NCBI RefSeq assembly: GCF_014695585.1
Contig: NZ_JACJON010000067.1
Span: forward strand, 124,001 to 188,000
Source of the DNA: Microcoleus sp. FACHB-831
GTDB taxonomy: Bacteria > Cyanobacteriota > Cyanobacteriia > Cyanobacteriales > FACHB-T130
Reading direction: 5' to 3'
Length of the DNA stretch: 64,000 nucleotides
The notes beneath the pieces were generated by a model that was given only the letters and a program-made list of their open reading frames with translations, was not told the origin of the DNA and did no database searches. Made by a program: the position numbers and the translations under genes. The stretch's first letter is position 1. Each line of letters begins with the position of its first letter. This document shows positions 20,675 through 64,000 of this stretch, one piece after another.

Positions 20675-21412
20675 GCTTGTGTCTGCCTCTTTAATCGGAA
20701 ACTTTTTAGCAACTTGCGGCTCCCGGTAGTAGAGCCACTTCCATACCTGCTTAACCGAATAACAATTATTTCCAGGTATTCCTTCAGCAATCTCCCGTAA
20801 CTTTACTCATCGTTTATTACCAGTTTTTTAACGTTTTATTAACTCCCAGTATACAAAACTACAGACACCTTCGGGGATCGGCATCGTACCTAAATAAGTA
20901 AAAAAACTTCTCCCACACCCATGACTTGTTTGTAAGGGTTCCATGACATAGCCCTATAAATTAATCTTTATATAAAAAAAATTATGGGATGGGTGCAGGC
21001 GCTCGCATTGGGGGACGGCAACATTCCGGCGGTATCCTTAGCACAGTTCTTGGAGTCGCGTTTACATCTTCCTTTGCCAGGTTTGTGGTCAACCGCAGTT
21101 GGTAGCTGCGATCGCGATCGCACACAAAAAGGACAGACCAACAACTGTAGTTGATACCGTTCACAGTTGGCTGTGCTTACCAGTTGTCAGGACACCTGAT
21201 AGACAAGCGTTTCGACAAACCAAAATATTATTGACAAAAACCTGTTGATAATGTTCAATATGCACTATTCAATAAATAGAAATAGTTAAATTCAGCCAAT
21301 TGCAATAAAAAAGCTTAAATGAAAAGCTTAGATAAGGAATAAAATTAATATTGTTTGCGCGTACTCTACAGAAATGTAATCTTTTATAGCTTTGTTTACG
21401 AGGAATCTCGAC
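20675..21412. other. Long intergenic region upstream of the ATP-grasp/SET operon
   Basis: About 740 bp between divergent genes. Most is A/T-rich with no credible gene. A GC-richer island at 20984-21155 has overlapping short frames (56 residues starting MGWVQALALG; 38 residues starting MGAGARIGG), none with a ribosome binding site; a precursor peptide cannot be excluded but is not supported. Near the operon, AAGCTT occurs twice around 21310-21325. A good AGGA ribosome site precedes the ATG at 21413. Confidence 0.5.
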
Positions 21413-22879
21413 ATGAAAGTGTGTGTTCTGCAACCTGATTATTCTCAATCGGCAGTGGACTACAAAAACTACGATCCGCCTCGTAACCTCTCTCATCTGT
21501 TACTAGAAGACCAGGTAGACCATGTATTTCTCAACAAAGCGACAACGTACCGTCAGCTAAAAGAGTTAAAAAATAAAGATTACAATATTTTTGTCAACCT
21601 CTGTACGGGATGTTTGGACTGGGAAGTTCCCTCTATTGATGTAATTGTTGCTTTAGAACAGCTTAATTTACCTTATACTGGCCCTACTTTCGACCTCTAC
21701 GAGATTAACAAAGAGTTAATGAAGTATGTTGCCTACGTGGCAGGAGTAAGAACACCAGCATTTGTGAAAGCTGAAACCTTAGCTGATGTCGAGAGCGCTT
21801 GTGAAAACTTGCAATTCCCCCTGTTTGTTAAACCAGCAGCATCATCAGACAGTCTGGGAATTGACGCTCAATTTTATGTAACCACAAAAGAAGGATTATA
21901 TAGCAAAGCCGCCGACATCATAGGCAAATTTGGTCAAGTTTTAATTGAGGAGTATGCGCCTGGACGAGAGTTTACAGTCCTTGTAGCTGCTAACCCTGAA
22001 AATCGCTCTTCTCCCCTAACTTATAAATCTCTAGAGTTTGTCTTTCCTGATGGGGAACATTTTAAAACCTACGAACTGAAGGTGCGCCGCAATCGTCCAG
22101 AATTTTATATTACCTGTGCTGACCCAGAACTTGACCTGCGGTTGAGAGACGCTGCGGCGAAAATTTTCTGTGAATATAATGGGTTTGGCTATGCTTGTCT
22201 TGATTTTAGAGTTAACGAACAAAACGAGGTTTTCGTCTTGTCAATTAACTTCAAGCCTTCGGTTTTTTATTCAGAAGGTGCAGAAGCATTGGCTGACTGC
22301 ATTTTAAAGTTTGATGGTGCGGGTTCTTCAGGATTCCTCAAACATATTATTGCAGAAGGTATTGACAGACAGAAACGTCGTCAGAGGAAATTTAGAGTAC
22401 GCAAGAATACTATTTCCGGCTATGGCATTTATGCCATTACTGATTTCAAAGCTGGGGAAATTGTCGTCCAATTCGAGGAACAAGCAAAAAGGATTGTTAC
22501 CCGTTCGCACGTCGAATCCCACTGGAGTATATCGGCTCAAGAATCTTTTCAACGGTATGCTCTTCCTTTGAGTGAAGAAGTCTTTATTTTCTGGGACGAA
22601 GACCCAGCCAAATGGCTGCCTACAAACCACTCTTGCGATGCGAATATGGTCTTGCGAGGACTTAACATTTGTGCCCTTAGAGACATCGCAGCAGGAGAGG
22701 AATTGACTTTAGACTACTCAGTGTCAATATATAGCGAAGATTTTCCAGAATTTGAGTGTCAGTGTGGATCGTTCAAGTGCCGAGGGATTATTCGCGGAAC
22801 TTCAGGAAATTCTGTAACTTGGCGAGAAAAGGAGCGCAAAAAATCACAAATTCGTTCTCAAATTCAGGCGGGAAAATAA
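21413..22879 (+). CDS. ATP-grasp ligase fused to a SET-domain methyltransferase
   Basis: 488 residues from the ATG at 21413, which has an AGGA site; the frame also runs back to a TTG at 21392. Residues 1-~315 form a D-Ala-D-Ala-ligase-like ATP-grasp module: FPLFVKPAASSDSLGID with ATP-binding Lys140, VLIEEYAPGREFTVLV, and ACLDFRV (Asp264). The final metal-ligand motif reads VLSINFKP, so the usual Glu is Ser277 while Asn279 is kept. Residues ~325-460 are a SET domain: SGYGIYAITDFKAGE, NHSCDAN (405-411), EELTLDYS with catalytic Tyr435, then a post-SET cysteine set (CQCGSFKC, 449-456). The tail is basic. It probably modifies a peptide or protein; the target is unknown. First gene of three. Confidence 0.9.
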   Translation: MKVCVLQPDYSQSAVDYKNYDPPRNLSHLLLEDQVDHVFLNKATTYRQLKELKNKDYNIFVNLCTGCLDWEVPSIDVIVALEQLNLPYTGPTFDLYEINKELMKYVAYVAGVRTPAFVKAETLADVESACENLQFPLFVKPAASSDSLGIDAQFYVTTKEGLYSKAADIIGKFGQVLIEEYAPGREFTVLVAANPENRSSPLTYKSLEFVFPDGEHFKTYELKVRRNRPEFYITCADPELDLRLRDAAAKIFCEYNGFGYACLDFRVNEQNEVFVLSINFKPSVFYSEGAEALADCILKFDGAGSSGFLKHIIAEGIDRQKRRQRKFRVRKNTISGYGIYAITDFKAGEIVVQFEEQAKRIVTRSHVESHWSISAQESFQRYALPLSEEVFIFWDEDPAKWLPTNHSCDANMVLRGLNICALRDIAAGEELTLDYSVSIYSEDFPEFECQCGSFKCRGIIRGTSGNSVTWREKERKKSQIRSQIQAGK

Positions 22880-22971
22880 AGCGATCGCCAGCCAGCAGTA
22901 AACTTATGCAGATTTGATTAACAAAGATAACTCTTTGGCACGCTTGGCAACAGATTGAGGGAAAAATATCA

Positions 22972-24075
22972 ATGCTTCAGAAATTGCCCGTTGCTGCTAG
23001 TAAAATATTTGTCTGGGCATTTATTCCCTACCGCATCCAACAACAAAAGCTGATAAGCGAATACCACGACAAGCCCAGCGAACGACAGGAACTGGCAGAT
23101 GTTTTTGCAGAACTCGGTATCAAGTGGAAATGGCAGCCACTCACCTTAGAAAATATGCAAGCAGTGGTTGAGGAGGTAGCTGCTGCTGCTGATAAATGCA
23201 TACCTGTAGTGCTGAACTATTGCGATGGTTTTGATGAAATTGACGGCTACCCAGGGATTGCGATTGCCAAACTGCTGGAAGCGAAAAACATCATTTTCAC
23301 AGGAGCAGATGCTAGCTTTTTGCATCTATCAGACAACAAAATATTGATGAAGCGTGCTTTTGTTAAAGCAGGGGTTTCAACTGCTCCTTACGAAGTCATT
23401 TCCTATGCAGCCGCATTCGGGGGAGTATGCGATCGCCTTGGCACTCCTCTAATTGTGAAACCAGCAATTTCTTACGCCAGCTATGGAATTTCTTTGCAGT
23501 CAGTTGTTAATAGCGACGAACAGGTAAACCTGCAATTACAGCGCTTGGTTCAAGGACAGCATGGTAAATATTTTCCGCCTGAAAGCATTTTTGTAGAAAA
23601 ATTTATCACCGGTTCTGAGTTTACCGTCTTGATTGTTGGCTCCGTTCATCAGCCAGCTACAATTAAAATTTATCCACCTGTAGAACGGATTTTTCATTCC
23701 AGTTTGGCTGTTTCTGAACGGTTTTTAACTTTTGATAGGTACTGGGCAAAATATCAAGAAGAAACTTCCCTTTCTCCTGAAGAACCTTTTTACCGTTACC
23801 AACTAGCCGATCCTATTTTGCATGACAAACTTTGCGAGTTAAGTATGCGTGCTTACTGTGCCGTTGGCGGTAATGGATATGGACGGGTTGATGTGCGAAT
23901 GGATAAAAATTCCCAAGAACTTTTTGTCCTTGAAGTGAATGCTAACTGCGGTATTTCTTCCGATGACCAAACTTCAGTTGGCAATATTTTGCGCTTTTCT
24001 GGTACGCCGTTTGCACAACTGATGTCAGAAATGATCGGCGGTGCTTTTGATAGGCATTATACTAAGTCGCAGTAA
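22972..24075 (+). CDS. ATP-grasp ligase (D-Ala-D-Ala ligase-like)
   Basis: 367 residues with a TGAGGG site before the ATG. The ATP-grasp fold is complete: a pre-ATP-grasp region with VVLNYCDGFDEIDGYPGIAI, IVKPAISYASYGI (Lys163), IFVEKFITGSEFTVLIVG (Glu209), and a metal site GRVDVRMD...LFVLEVNANC with Asp307, Glu321 and Asn323 all present. So this ligase looks active, unlike the ATP-grasp half of the upstream fusion. It is about 100 residues longer than a minimal core and lacks features of genuine Ddl, so it is unlikely to be the housekeeping peptidoglycan enzyme. It should form an acyl-phosphate and join it to an amine. It lies 92 bp after the fusion gene. Confidence 0.88.
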   Translation: MLQKLPVAASKIFVWAFIPYRIQQQKLISEYHDKPSERQELADVFAELGIKWKWQPLTLENMQAVVEEVAAAADKCIPVVLNYCDGFDEIDGYPGIAIAKLLEAKNIIFTGADASFLHLSDNKILMKRAFVKAGVSTAPYEVISYAAAFGGVCDRLGTPLIVKPAISYASYGISLQSVVNSDEQVNLQLQRLVQGQHGKYFPPESIFVEKFITGSEFTVLIVGSVHQPATIKIYPPVERIFHSSLAVSERFLTFDRYWAKYQEETSLSPEEPFYRYQLADPILHDKLCELSMRAYCAVGGNGYGRVDVRMDKNSQELFVLEVNANCGISSDDQTSVGNILRFSGTPFAQLMSEMIGGAFDRHYTKSQ

Positions 24076-24137
24076 ACTCATAGCAGTTTCGTAGATTTTG
24101 AAAGTATTCAATCAAAAATTAGGAGTTTCTACGCAAA

Positions 24138-24632
24138 GTGCAGCTAACTAATATCCCATCTAAAGTCACTAAAGCTTCATATTTTGCCGAATTATGGGAG
24201 TGTCCTCTAACAGGTGAAAAATCGCTCCACGCAAGTGTTACACTTATGCCGAGTGAAATAGTTTCTGCTTTCAGAATTCAAGAAATCTTGAGCAAGCCTA
24301 ACTACTTGACGGTGCAATTAAACGAGCAAGAACACATGACGCTCGAACCGGAGTTTTTGCAATACATCAATCACAGTTGCGATCCTAATGTTTTTTTTGA
24401 CACTACAAATATGGTTGTCATCTGTCTTAAGAAGATTGAATTGAGCGAACAAATGACCTTCTTCTACCCATCTACAGAATGGTCTATGGATCGAGGGTTT
24501 GATTGTCTGTGTGGAACTGAAGAATGCCTGGGATATATTCAGGGAGCAGCACATTTACCAACAAATATTTTGAAACAATATAAACTGTCTGATTACATTC
24601 AACAAAAGTTAAAAATTATAAAAGATGATTAG
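24138..24632 (+). CDS. Small stand-alone SET-domain protein
   Basis: 164 residues starting at GTG with AGGAG 12 bp upstream. YINHSCDPNVFFDT (SET motif III, 76-89), SEQMTFFYPSTEW (motif IV, Tyr110) and a post-SET cysteine group DCLCGTEEC (122-130) are clear. The N-terminal SET strands are short and divergent. It should use S-adenosylmethionine to methylate a lysine or N-terminal amine; the small size suggests it may act with a partner, perhaps the SET half of the fusion upstream. It is third in the operon, 62 bp after the ATP-grasp gene, and a perfect palindrome follows. Confidence 0.85.
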   Translation: MQLTNIPSKVTKASYFAELWECPLTGEKSLHASVTLMPSEIVSAFRIQEILSKPNYLTVQLNEQEHMTLEPEFLQYINHSCDPNVFFDTTNMVVICLKKIELSEQMTFFYPSTEWSMDRGFDCLCGTEECLGYIQGAAHLPTNILKQYKLSDYIQQKLKIIKDD

Positions 24633-24652
24633 GGTACGGAAACTGGTAATGG

Positions 24653-24682
24653 AAAATTTGGCACCAATTGGTGCCAAATTTT
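24653..24682. terminator. Perfect 30-bp palindrome after the ATP-grasp/SET operon
   Basis: AAAATTTGGCACCAA joined to TTGGTGCCAAATTTT with no spacer, 20 bp after the last stop. It is followed by a second dyad (CAAAATATT-CCCC / GGGG-AAATATTG, 24686-24727). It probably ends the operon transcript; a protein-binding role is possible because a loop-less palindrome is not ideal for termination. Confidence 0.65.
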
Positions 24683-24759
24683 CGACAAAATATTCCCCGT
24701 CAAGGATAAAAAGGTGGGGAAATATTGTTAAGTTAAGGGTTTGAGGTTAGGCATTCCAT

Positions 24760-59926: not shown

Positions 59927-62900
59927 ATGAAATTAAGTATATCGCGTGTTAGTCTGCTGGTGGTCGCACTTTCGTTTATGGTTAGCATAGGTATAGAGAA
60001 AGGGCGATCGCAGGCGCAATCTATTATCCCAGCCGCAGATAACGCTAACACCATTACCACCCAGAATGGCAATCAGTTCGACATAAGTGGCGGTAAGATT
60101 TCAGGCGATGGTGCAAATCTATTCCATAGTTTTACCCACTTTGGCCTAAGCAAAGACCAAATTGCAAACTTTATCTCCAACCCCAACATTCAGAATATTC
60201 TTGCAATAATAAAGGGCGGAGACGCATCAGTAATTAACGGCTTACTCCAAGTTACGGGCGGCAATTCTAACTTAATTTTAATGAATCCAGCAGGGATTAT
60301 TTTTGGCAGCAACGCTAGCTTAAATGTACCTGCTGGATTTACAGCTACAACAGCCAATGCTATTGGCTTTGGCTCTAATTGGTTTAATTCGACTAATATT
60401 AATGACTACGCTATTCTCACCGGAACGCCCAGCAATTTTGCATTTACGATGAGTCAGCCAGGGGCAATTATTAACGCTGGCAACTTAGCAGTGGGAGAAG
60501 GAAAAAATTTAGTTTTGGTAGGCGGAACTGTTATAAATACGGGTAATTTATCCGCGCCCGAGGGTAATATTATCGTAGCGGCTGTAAAAGGAGAAAATTT
60601 AGTTCGCTTGAGCCAAGCGGGACACCTTCTAAGTTTAGAAATAGGGACGGGGAATCCTAATACCCCATCACCAACCCAAAATCCCCTATCATTACCGGAA
60701 TTATTGACTGGTGGCGGTGCAAGTAGTGCTACGGGACTTACAGTTAATAGTAATGGTGAGGTAATCTTAACTGGTTCAGGGATTAGCATTCCCACAGAGT
60801 CGGGTATTGCTATTGTATCTGGCAGTATTGATGCATCAGGCAAAAGCGGCGGAAATGTGCAAATTTTTGGTAACAAAGTTGGATTATTAGGCGCTAATAT
60901 TAAGGTTTCAGGTACTAATAATGGGGGTAACGTGCTGATTGGCGGCGACTACCAGGGTAAGGGTAAAGTGCCTCGCGCCGCAAGCACTTACGTTAGTAAA
61001 GATAGTGTTATTAATGCAGATAGTATTCTTAACGGTGATGGCGGTCGTGTTATTGTTTGGGCTGATAAATTAACTGAATTTTTAGGTAATATTAGCGCTA
61101 AGGGTGGCAGTAATTTAGGTAACGGCGGATTTGTGGAAGTGTCGGGTAAAGACACCCTAATTTTTAGAGGTAAAGTTGATACTCTGGCGACTAATGGTAA
61201 TGCGGGTACTTTGCTGCTTGACCCAATTGATATCACGATAGTAAGCGCTACGGCTGCATCGGAAGACAGCAAGTTGCCCTCTTTTTCCTATACTGATAAT
61301 TATCCTTCTTCGTTTACAATTTCCAAAACTGCACTGGAAAATCAGAGCGGTAATGTGTTGCTGGAGGCGAGTAATAATATCACAATTAACCCAGGCGTAT
61401 CGTTGAATTTTGTTAGCGGTGGGTCAATTGTTTTTAAGGCGGACGCTGATAGTAATGGTGTTGGCTCTTTTTTGATGAATTCAGCAGATACTATTGCTAC
61501 AAATGGGCGATCGCTATCTATTTCAGGAGCAACTTTATCTGTTGGAAATATTAATACTTCATCGGGTTCTGGCAATGGAGGAGCGTTCGCTCTTACTGCC
61601 AATGGGGATATTAATTATAATTTCCTTTCGACTAAAAGTATTAGTGGCAATGCTGGCAACATCGATATAAATGCTGGTGGAAACGTTGTCGGCTTAGATA
61701 TTTATGCCAACTCTGATGGAGACAATGGCGGCAATCTCACTATAAATGCTGGTGGGAATATTTACACCGATGATATCTTTTCTATGGGTTCTTTAAAGAG
61801 TGGGGATATCACCCTAATCAGCGGCGGGACGATTGACACATTCAAAACTGATACAACCCTAAATACCCCAGGTGGTATAGTTTCATGTTCTAGCAGTGGT
61901 GCTGTACTTTGCGCTGGTGGTAGTGGCAAGGGTGGAAATATCACTCTTAAAGCAGCGATCGCAATTGATATTCCAAATACACTCACCAGTACTGGTTCTG
62001 CTGGTGGCGGAAATATTGATGTTCAAAGCGATGGAACAATTAGCAGAATTTCTTTAAACTCAAGTTCTACTAATGGTAAAGGTGGCGCGATCGCTGTCAA
62101 TGCCAAAAGCGATATTACGACGGGTGATATTAATTCGAGTGCCTTTCTAGATGGCGGAAATATCGATATTAAAAGCGGTGGAATAATTGATATTAGGCAA
62201 CTGGCTATAAACTCAAGTTCTACTAATGGTAAAGGTGGCGCGATCGCTCTCGATTCGGCAAGCGATATTACAACGGGTAATATTAATTCCAATGGCTTAT
62301 TAGGCGGCGGCGATATTAAATTGCTAACCAGCGGCGGCAGCATTAATGCTACTAAAGGTGGCCTAAACTCTAGTTCTATTAATGGCAATGGCGGCGCGAT
62401 CGCACTTGAAGCTAAAGGCGATATTAGGACGGCAAAAGTGGAATCTAGTTCGCCTGATTCTGTTAAAAATGGGGGTGACATTACCTTCACTAGCAAGGAA
62501 GGAGCGATAAACACCACAGCGGGAAGTTTATTTTCTAGCTCTACCTTTGGCAATTCGGGAGCGATCGCGCTTTCTGCTAATGGCAACATTACTACTTCTG
62601 ATATTGATTCTCGCTCAACTGGTTCCGGCAATGGGGGTAATATTACTCTTATTAGTAAAGCGGGAGCGATTGACACTACATCGGGAACTTTTAACTCTTA
62701 CTCTAATAGTGGCTTAGGAGGTGCGATCGCTCTCAGTGCTAATAGCAATATTACTACTGCTAATTTGATATCTGTATCACCCGGCGTTGGCACTGGTGGT
62801 AATATTATTCTTAACACCACAACAGGAGCCATCGATACAACAGCAGGAGTTTTATTCGGTGGTTCTGTGAGTGGAAATGCAGGAGCGAGCGCTCTTACTG

Positions 62901-64000
62901 CTAATGGAAACATTACCACTGGTGCTGAAGTGAATTCTCGCTCTAGGGGTTCTGGCACTAATGCTGGTTCTATCACATTAACAAGCATTTCAGGAGCCAT
63001 TGATACAACAGCAGGAGAGGTGAAATCTAGCTCGGTTGATGACAATGCTGGTAATGGTGGAGCGCTAGTTTTTAAAGCATCGGGAAACATTACTACTAAT
63101 ACGCTTATCTCTGAATCTTCTGGTTCTGGTAACGGCGGTAATATCAATATCACCAGTTTAAAGGGAGAAATTAACACGACAGCAGGAGATGTGAATGCTA
63201 GTTCTGTTAATGGAAATGGTGGAAATATTACGCTACAAGCCGCTGGCAATGTTACTACTAATAAAATTAGCTCGAATGGTTTTTCTAAGCTCAATGCTGG
63301 GAGCCTTCTTATTAAGAGTGACGGTAATATAAATACTGATGATTTAAGTTTTGTTAGTTTTTCTGGCGATGGCGGTAATATCTCCCTTACTGCGGCTAGT
63401 AATATTACAACCAAACGAATAAGTTCTAGCGGAGCAAATATCAGCGGAGATATTAATCTTACAAGTGGTGGAATAATTGATACTACTGGGGGCGATGTTA
63501 CTTCTACGTTTGGAACCGATAATCTTATCAATTCCGCTTTTGGTGGCAATATTACTTTCACTGCTACTGGTGATATAAAGACTGATGTATTAATATCTGG
63601 TATTCAGCCTTACACTGGCAGCGCTGGAAATATTAAGCTTGATAGCACGGGCGGTGTTATTACTAATAATCTTAACTCATCAGGCTTGAGTGAAGGAGGC
63701 GCGATCGCTATCTCAGCTAGCAACCAAATTACAACTGGGGAAATCAATTCTAGTTCTACTTCTGGTATTGGTGGAAATATACAAATCGATAGCAAAGATA
63801 CTATCTTAAGTGGAGATATTAACTCATCAGGGTTGAATGGGGGAGGCGCGATCGCTATTTCAGCTAGCAACCAAATTACAACTGGAGAAATCAATTCTAG
63901 TTCTAATTTTGGTAATGGCGGAAATGTAACTCTCGATCCGCTTGGAGATATTCAAGTTAGTTTAATAAATGCCCAAGGTGGAACGCGGGGAACGGGGGGG
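59927..64000 (+). CDS. Filamentous haemagglutinin/TPS-secreted adhesin, 3' end outside the window
   Basis: An uninterrupted frame of 1358 codons from the ATG at 59927 to the window end. Signal peptide (LSISRVSLLVVALSFMVSIG), then a two-partner-secretion domain: TQNGNQFDISGGKISGDGAN, LFHSFTHFGLSKDQIANFIS, GGDASVINGLLQVTGGNSNL, ILMNPAGIIFGSNASLNVPA and GFTATTANAIGFG. A beta-helical region of repeats of about 50 residues follows (GGAIALSA / GNITT / GNGGNI / TSGGIIDT). A TpsB transporter is required for export and is not in view. Several cyanobacterial relatives end in CHAT or calcium-binding domains; the end is not visible here. The A/T-rich, Gly/Ser/Asn-rich coding makes long false frames on the other strand. 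Confidence 0.95.
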   Translation, partial: MKLSISRVSLLVVALSFMVSIGIEKGRSQAQSIIPAADNANTITTQNGNQFDISGGKISGDGANLFHSFTHFGLSKDQIANFISNPNIQNILAIIKGGDASVINGLLQVTGGNSNLILMNPAGIIFGSNASLNVPAGFTATTANAIGFGSNWFNSTNINDYAILTGTPSNFAFTMSQPGAIINAGNLAVGEGKNLVLVGGTVINTGNLSAPEGNIIVAAVKGENLVRLSQAGHLLSLEIGTGNPNTPSPTQNPLSLPELLTGGGASSATGLTVNSNGEVILTGSGISIPTESGIAIVSGSIDASGKSGGNVQIFGNKVGLLGANIKVSGTNNGGNVLIGGDYQGKGKVPRAASTYVSKDSVINADSILNGDGGRVIVWADKLTEFLGNISAKGGSNLGNGGFVEVSGKDTLIFRGKVDTLATNGNAGTLLLDPIDITIVSATAASEDSKLPSFSYTDNYPSSFTISKTALENQSGNVLLEASNNITINPGVSLNFVSGGSIVFKADADSNGVGSFLMNSADTIATNGRSLSISGATLSVGNINTSSGSGNGGAFALTANGDINYNFLSTKSISGNAGNIDINAGGNVVGLDIYANSDGDNGGNLTINAGGNIYTDDIFSMGSLKSGDITLISGGTIDTFKTDTTLNTPGGIVSCSSSGAVLCAGGSGKGGNITLKAAIAIDIPNTLTSTGSAGGGNIDVQSDGTISRISLNSSSTNGKGGAIAVNAKSDITTGDINSSAFLDGGNIDIKSGGIIDIRQLAINSSSTNGKGGAIALDSASDITTGNINSNGLLGGGDIKLLTSGGSINATKGGLNSSSINGNGGAIALEAKGDIRTAKVESSSPDSVKNGGDITFTSKEGAINTTAGSLFSSSTFGNSGAIALSANGNITTSDIDSRSTGSGNGGNITLISKAGAIDTTSGTFNSYSNSGLGGAIALSANSNITTANLISVSPGVGTGGNIILNTTTGAIDTTAGVLFGGSVSGNAGASALTANGNITTGAEVNSRSRGSGTNAGSITLTSISGAIDTTAGEVKSSSVDDNAGNGGALVFKASGNITTNTLISESSGSGNGGNINITSLKGEINTTAGDVNASSVNGNGGNITLQAAGNVTTNKISSNGFSKLNAGSLLIKSDGNINTDDLSFVSFSGDGGNISLTAASNITTKRISSSGANISGDINLTSGGIIDTTGGDVTSTFGTDNLINSAFGGNITFTATGDIKTDVLISGIQPYTGSAGNIKLDSTGGVITNNLNSSGLSEGGAIAISASNQITTGEINSSSTSGIGGNIQIDSKDTILSGDINSSGLNGGGAIAISASNQITTGEINSSSNFGNGGNVTLDPLGDIQVSLINAQGGTRGTGG

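Follow-up and report, generated by a model that had tools for sequence, protein, structure and literature searches.

An ATP-grasp/SET fusion, a free ATP-grasp ligase and a BurB-like SET protein in one operon of Microcoleus sp. FACHB-831: a candidate small-molecule pathway

SET domains in bacteria are routinely annotated as protein-lysine methyltransferases. A SET enzyme of different specificity is BurB, which S-methylates free methionine to S-methylmethionine, with substrate contacts made via the main chain (PMC12542666). The ATP-grasp ligases of the D-alanine-D-alanine ligase (Ddl) type join small molecules, and the combination of ATP-grasp with SET is described in open-access full text (few subscription journals covered) only for TTLL12 and in one unrelated paper. 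Here, a stretch of 64,000 nucleotides from Microcoleus sp. FACHB-831 (NZ_JACJON010000067.1, positions 124,001 to 188,000; hereafter the window) is considered, which contains a three-gene operon encoding an ATP-grasp/SET fusion (P0001), a free Ddl-like ATP-grasp ligase (P0002) and a small SET-domain methyltransferase (P0003). An annotation made in a first pass had proposed these genes as an undescribed modification system; in the open-access literature, most subscription journals lying outside its coverage, neither a comparable system nor a characterised pathway with the same gene set was found.

The three families are co-conserved as a unit across several distant bacterial phyla. The reading favoured here, to which we give an even chance, is that the operon constitutes a small-molecule pathway, in which SET-methylated amino acids are assembled by the ligases into a small peptide or amide and the product is exported; that something is ligated and methylated, as proposed in the first pass, thus still describes the operon best. 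A free amino acid, or a close derivative of one, would be methylated on its side chain by P0003, whereupon P0002, and in most relatives also the ligase half of P0001, would couple an ATP-activated carboxylate to an amine in the manner of Ddl-type dipeptide ligases. A second methylation may be introduced by the SET half of P0001, in the substrate or the product of its own ligase half, and export would proceed by the ABC exporter or the ABC membrane subunit whose gene lies in the operon of many relatives. What is observed is the co-conservation, the exporter linkage, the folds with their nearest relatives and the conserved motifs of the active sites; from these we infer the small size of the substrate, the single pathway and the order of the steps.

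Domains and nearest relatives of the three proteins

The three open reading frames (ORFs) lie on the + strand in tight order: P0001 (21413-22879, 488 aa, ATG start), P0002 (22972-24075, 367 aa, ATG start) and P0003 (24138-24632, 164 aa, GTG start), separated by intergenic gaps of 92 and 62 bp. ORFs, gaps and Pfam matches agree in this respect with the arrangement of the first-pass annotation, and so do the ribosome sites it had named for each gene, Shine-Dalgarno-like purine-rich stretches being read from the sequence 5' of all three starts (gaggaa, gaggga and aggag). Across the whole 6.42-Mb genome, SET is matched by P0001 and P0003 only.

Concerning the ATP-grasp domains, P0001 consists of a Ddl-like ATP-grasp part (approximately residues 1-325) and a SET part (approximately residues 327-470), with Pfam matches above cut-off to Dala_Dala_lig_C (1.3e-14) and SET (5.4e-11); P0002 matches Dala_Dala_lig_C, likewise above cut-off, with 2.8e-17. 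Ddl enzymes are the nearest folds and the nearest sequences for both ATP-grasp parts, the scores against the curated Ddl families (65.5 and 86.2 bits) being below their cut-offs (about 243-246). In P0002 the Mg ligands are complete (D307, E321, N323), whereas in P0001 a Glu present in 44/46 sequences is replaced by Ser (E277S), at what we take from established Ddl knowledge to be one of three expected Mg-ligand positions. P0001 departs from the family at 13/110 near-invariant ATP-grasp columns vs 2/37 SET columns, further changes being G145S and C282P; Lys140, Asp264 and Asn279 are retained. The fusion copy of Trichocoleus is likewise divergent. Because E277S, G145S and C282P are among the 13 changed columns, P0001 probably has a weak or impaired ligase half in this genome, and ligation would be taken over by P0002.

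The same substitutions could also indicate that the operon is decaying or repurposed in this genome, with P0001 acting as SET methyltransferase or scaffold only and its ligase half dead, which would be compatible with a small-molecule pathway. The divergent Trichocoleus copy points in this direction, as does the opposite loss in the cyanobacterial metagenome-assembled genome (MAG) UBA8803, where the ligase half is retained and SET is gone. Three open and closely spaced frames, the retained Lys140, Asp264 and Asn279 of P0001 and an intact P0002 argue otherwise, and we regard decay as decidedly unlikely.

Concerning the SET domains, P0003 matches the Pfam SET profile above cut-off (5.1e-7) and aligns only with the C-terminal half of it; despite this half-profile match, structure prediction, a check suggested in the first pass, gives a complete short SET fold (AlphaFold2, pLDDT 92) with BurB as the nearest solved relative. 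BurB is the top solved relative in a single-sequence search (2.5e-13 vs 8e-5 for the next), by family profile (2.6e-20 vs 1.6e-8 for the next) and as structural match to the model (Z 15.3 vs 11.5 for the next). The residues His93, Arg133 and active-site Tyr124 of BurB are matched in P0003 by H79, R119 and Y110. Since the side chains contacting S-adenosylmethionine (SAM, AdoMet) are only partly kept, P0003 is regarded as BurB-like, and an assignment as methionine methyltransferase is not made. The SET half of P0001 is matched about equally well by BurB and by lysine methyltransferases of the MLL/ASH1L type. The NHSC motif, the catalytic Tyr and the post-SET cysteines are invariant or nearly so in both SET families.

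These motifs, their retention in both SET domains, and the MLL/ASH1L-type match of the P0001 SET half would fit modification of a protein, in which a side chain or terminus would receive an amino acid or peptide from the ATP-grasps, while lysines of that protein or of a different one would be methylated by the SET domains; the eukaryotic TTLL12, in which a SET-like domain is likewise paired with an ATP-grasp domain of the TTL kind (PMC3520985), offers a parallel. We hold this to be unlikely, since the ATP-grasp parts are Ddl-like, i.e., resemble small-molecule ligases, BurB is the closest solved relative of P0003, the families keep company with exporters and amino-acid enzymes, and no conserved partner gene able to encode a protein substrate was found in the 78 loci examined. 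The lysine methylation of a protein assumed in the first pass accordingly fits P0003 poorly, its nearest relative being BurB and its further relatives lying beside enzymes of free amino acids.

Conservation and neighbourhood in other genomes

An alignment of four fused proteins, run against 84,980 species genomes, yielded 108 relatives of the fusion, of which the best 80 loci were kept (loci are numbered with L). Nearly full-length orthologues with 48-62% identity are found in Cyanobacteria, in many Bacteroidota, in Gemmatimonadota, in an Acidobacteria MAG and in a betaproteobacterial MAG. Under even sampling, the fusion occurs in 22/200 Gemmatimonadota (11%), in 15/296 Bacteroidota (about 5%) and in 4/199 Acidobacteriota (two of them with the ATP-grasp part only), while among 339 Cyanobacteria genomes there is one full-length fusion besides the one studied here (<1%). 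The cyanobacterial copies form one clade in the tree (support 100/97), and a recent acquisition of the operon from Bacteroidota, which had been considered, is therefore unsupported.

The common gene order outside the cyanobacteria is small SET, ATP-grasp, fusion on a single strand, most intergenic gaps lying between a short overlap and about 100 bp. P0002 is situated directly upstream of the fusion in 63/66 non-cyanobacterial loci with enough upstream sequence, and all three genes are contiguous in 43/61 testable ones. As these loci had been selected for holding the fusion, an independent test of co-occurrence was added in the 296 Bacteroidota genomes: the fusion is present in 15, the small SET in 15 and both in 14 (Fisher p 7e-22, or 2e-12 after collapsing one clade of eight similar small genomes; both values ignore phylogeny and overstate the support). 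The association is more than linkage, because three of them, G350, G963 and G1043, have fusion and small SET far apart or on separate contigs. The co-conservation across genomes on which the first-pass annotation had made its three-gene unit depend is thus found at the level of families, but a complete triad is not required everywhere: fusion and small SET occur without the P0002 type in Plectonema, Tolypothrix and Nostoc S13, and Trichocoleus possesses the fusion with neither small SET nor P0002 beside it and likewise without the P0002 type. A strict requirement for all three genes was rejected on these grounds.

Besides the triad, exporter genes recur. A protein of the ABC_membrane_3 family without ATPase domain is encoded by the next gene after the fusion in 28 loci, and a full ABC exporter is found at L116 and at L180-L182. 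The latter loci, from small-genome Bacteroidota (e.g., L182:5812-10074, - strand), show a second arrangement, in which small SET, fusion and full ABC exporter are followed by a mini-SET of 120 aa. In cyanobacteria, further enzymes of amide or amino-acid chemistry accompany the fusion. In the operon of Brasilonema (L043) a FemAB/GNAT protein is inserted. The UBA8803 locus mentioned above (L112:358-9368, + strand; 69% identity in the ligase half) contains a nonribosomal peptide synthetase (NRPS; adenylation, PRMT5-like methyltransferase, carrier and thioesterase), a homologue of the ectoine synthase EctC and two P0002 copies in a row; this cluster is followed by a cyclic-nucleotide (cNMP)-binding protein and by a protein that reads like a membrane fusion protein of the HlyD type. 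The absence of transporter and NRPS noted in the first pass hence holds for the window and not for the relatives, which possess an ABC exporter part or a full exporter and, in one cyanobacterial cluster, an NRPS.

In genomes of the Trichocoleus type, a gene of the SpeD (AdoMet decarboxylase) family is situated 61 bp upstream of the fusion (L039:8187-8588 and L040:8108-8509, both - strand). In Trichocoleus (L039) it is the only SpeD match of the genome searched, in which no match to the N-terminal domain of spermidine synthase (SpeE) was found. SpeD without SpeE has been linked to new decarboxylase functions (PMC10407285), and the reading of the Trichocoleus protein as an ordinary AdoMet decarboxylase is weakened by the missing SpeE match.

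A cell-envelope role, with the Ddl-like ligases supplying a variant peptide, methylated by the SET domains, to peptidoglycan or a different wall polymer, could account for the Ddl-type fold, for the FemAB-like protein of Brasilonema and for the ABC membrane subunit downstream. It appears improbable in view of the patchy spread (about 5% of Bacteroidota, 11% of Gemmatimonadota and <1% of Cyanobacteria sampled), of scores far under the Ddl family cut-offs and of the 78 loci examined, in which no Mur, penicillin-binding or flippase genes are conserved beside the operon.

Concerning the small SET, tight same-strand clusters with a P0003-like protein are found in two other cyanobacterial genomes (L205:3875-7431, - strand, 62% identity; L207:9159-12061, + strand, 53% identity), together with an aminotransferase of the LL-diaminopimelate type and a GhrA-like 2-hydroxyacid dehydrogenase, and in L205 additionally with a 2-oxoglutarate (2OG)-Fe(II) oxygenase; family searches were done on the L205 proteins, to which those of L207 were matched by eye. 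The two clusters are reminiscent of the transamination route to dimethylsulfoniopropionate (DMSP). At L209 (7859-9253, + strand), a small SET with 29% identity to P0003 lies directly 3' of a protein like BesD/HalD, the family of free-amino-acid halogenases, which scores below the BesD cut-off. An EamA transporter adjoins the small SET in L206, and by eye proteins of a similar kind can be read in L207 and L213. On a plasmid of Eleftheria terrae (NZ_CP106953.1; L190:14854-15375, + strand), a BurB-like small SET annotated as protein-lysine N-methyltransferase neighbours genes of a polyketide synthase (PKS), a TauD-type dioxygenase, an aminotransferase and an aldehyde dehydrogenase. This distant small SET is the sole match among plasmid copies, and for P0001 no plasmid-borne match was found. 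The company of aminotransferase, dehydrogenase, BesD/HalD-like and PKS-cluster enzymes makes free amino acids, or derivatives of these, the likelier substrates of the small SETs.

Which residue is methylated can be narrowed by analogy. With BurB as the guide, methionine, giving a sulfonium, would be the leading guess, a rather unlikely one in itself, followed by a basic amino acid. A narrower form of the small-molecule reading would thus be a sulfonium metabolite pathway (S-methylmethionine- or DMSP-like), in which the ATP-grasps conjugate a sulfonium amino acid. It could appeal to the product of BurB, S-methylmethionine (PMC12542666), and to the aminotransferase and 2-hydroxyacid dehydrogenase beside the relatives of P0003 with 62% and 53% identity, a pair resembling steps one and two of the transamination route to DMSP. 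The aminotransferase, however, matches LL-diaminopimelate aminotransferase and not a methionine enzyme, the remaining partners are variable, a basic amino acid would fit equally and the operon has no conserved methionine-specific companion gene, such that a sulfonium pathway, too, seems rather unlikely.

Several observations weigh against the small-molecule pathway as a whole. The exporter part is found in approximately a third of the loci and is absent from the operon of the present genome, and the links to SpeD, EctC, FemAB and NRPS each exist in one or two genomes only. Within the active site, the SAM-contacting side chains of BurB are only partly kept (His72 and His138 correspond to Leu57 and Leu124 of P0003), position 119 is Gln in 36/44 members of the P0003 family, and P0003 has the NHSC motif of lysine methyltransferases, which is lacking in BurB (Asn to Leu).

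Alternatives from other quarters were set aside. In accordance with the first-pass annotation, which had seen no precursor peptide nearby, no convincing conserved small ORF was found within 800 bp of the operon among the loci examined; those that recur seem to be shadows of the downstream gene, antisense or off-frame. The lack of a conserved small ORF argues against a ribosomal precursor, and a graspetide-like system of ribosomally synthesized and post-translationally modified peptides (RiPPs) was discarded. Anti-phage defence was discarded likewise, P0001, P0002 and P0003 having no PADLOC match. The explanation favoured here is a pathway independent of the ribosome and mostly independent of NRPS, the product of which is a small methylated peptide or amino-acid amide.

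It is conceivable, and put forward here tentatively, that the operon represents a new class of ribosome- and NRPS-independent peptides in at least four phyla, characterised by a side-chain methyl installed by SET (sulfonium or methylated amine), by a ligase-methyltransferase fusion with a partner ligase and a BurB-like SET, and by dedicated ABC export. If the family does methylate amino acids or small peptides, the annotation of SET domains as protein-lysine methyltransferases in bacteria would be misleading in many cases, and BurB, far from a lone exception, would belong as one branch to a larger group of SET enzymes acting on small molecules. The operon would also mark a widespread undescribed metabolite in Bacteroidota, Gemmatimonadota and filamentous cyanobacteria.

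Signals and flanking sequence of the operon

The operon is followed by a perfect palindrome of 32 nt (24652-24683, without strand), which had been noticed in the first pass and which forms a strong hairpin when folded (z = -4.05); its 16-nt core has a single occurrence within the window. It separates P0003 from a convergent aminopeptidase-like gene and is, judged from its sequence and position between convergent genes, most likely a bidirectional terminator. Upstream, the non-coding region 20675-21412 (+ strand) presumably holds the operon promoter: the ORF list of the window contains no ORF of at least 80 aa wholly inside it, and the promoter scan gave matches not clearly above shuffled sequence. 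Rfam yielded no known RNA element in the region.

The flanking genes, presumably guanylate kinase, ABC1-type kinase and aminopeptidase as named from reading their sequences, look unrelated to the operon on both sides. Housekeeping-like neighbours, which we take from their sequences to be helicase, SSB, MnmG, YbeY and NadD, were also considered as pathway members and judged unrelated, because the operon start is usually 100-300 bp from any upstream gene and the neighbours vary. Far from the operon, at 60454-63894 (- strand) of the window, successive open frames rich in proline, leucine and isoleucine look repetitive; Tandem Repeats Finder reports no array there.

Comparison with known systems

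Among solved proteins, the small SET of the operon is most similar to BurB, the methionine S-methyltransferase of the DMSP/malleicyprol pathway, with which it shares the size of a stand-alone domain of about 170 aa, the SET fold and the motif Y..STE....F.C.CG....C; both BurB and the P0003-type SETs occur in small-molecule clusters. Despite this similarity, there are differences between the two: identity is about 26%, P0003 contains NHSC and lacks the counterparts of BurB His138 and His72, and ATP-grasp ligases take the place of BurI/BurD/BurE, no genes similar to the latter being found among the window ORFs around the operon.

With D-alanine-D-alanine ligase and the Ddl-like dipeptide ligases, P0001 and P0002 share the fold and the motifs for ATP and Mg binding (complete in P0002, with S277 in P0001), whereas their scores of 65-86 bits compare with family cut-offs of about 245, the N-terminal part differs and P0001 is fused to SET. 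The transamination route to DMSP, with its 4-methylthio-2-oxobutyrate (MTOB) reductase and 4-methylthio-2-hydroxybutyrate (MTHB) methyltransferase, is resembled by the clusters in which relatives of P0003 accompany an aminotransferase and a 2-hydroxyacid dehydrogenase; however, DsyGD, which belongs to this route in some filamentous cyanobacteria as well as in Gynuella, is no SET protein but a fusion of a class I methyltransferase (PF08241) with a decarboxylase. Equally to P0001, TTLL12 carries a SET-like and an ATP-grasp-superfamily domain on one chain (PMC3520985), a likeness by domain description, but it is eukaryotic and its ATP-grasp is of the TTL type, whereas that of the present operon is of the Ddl type.

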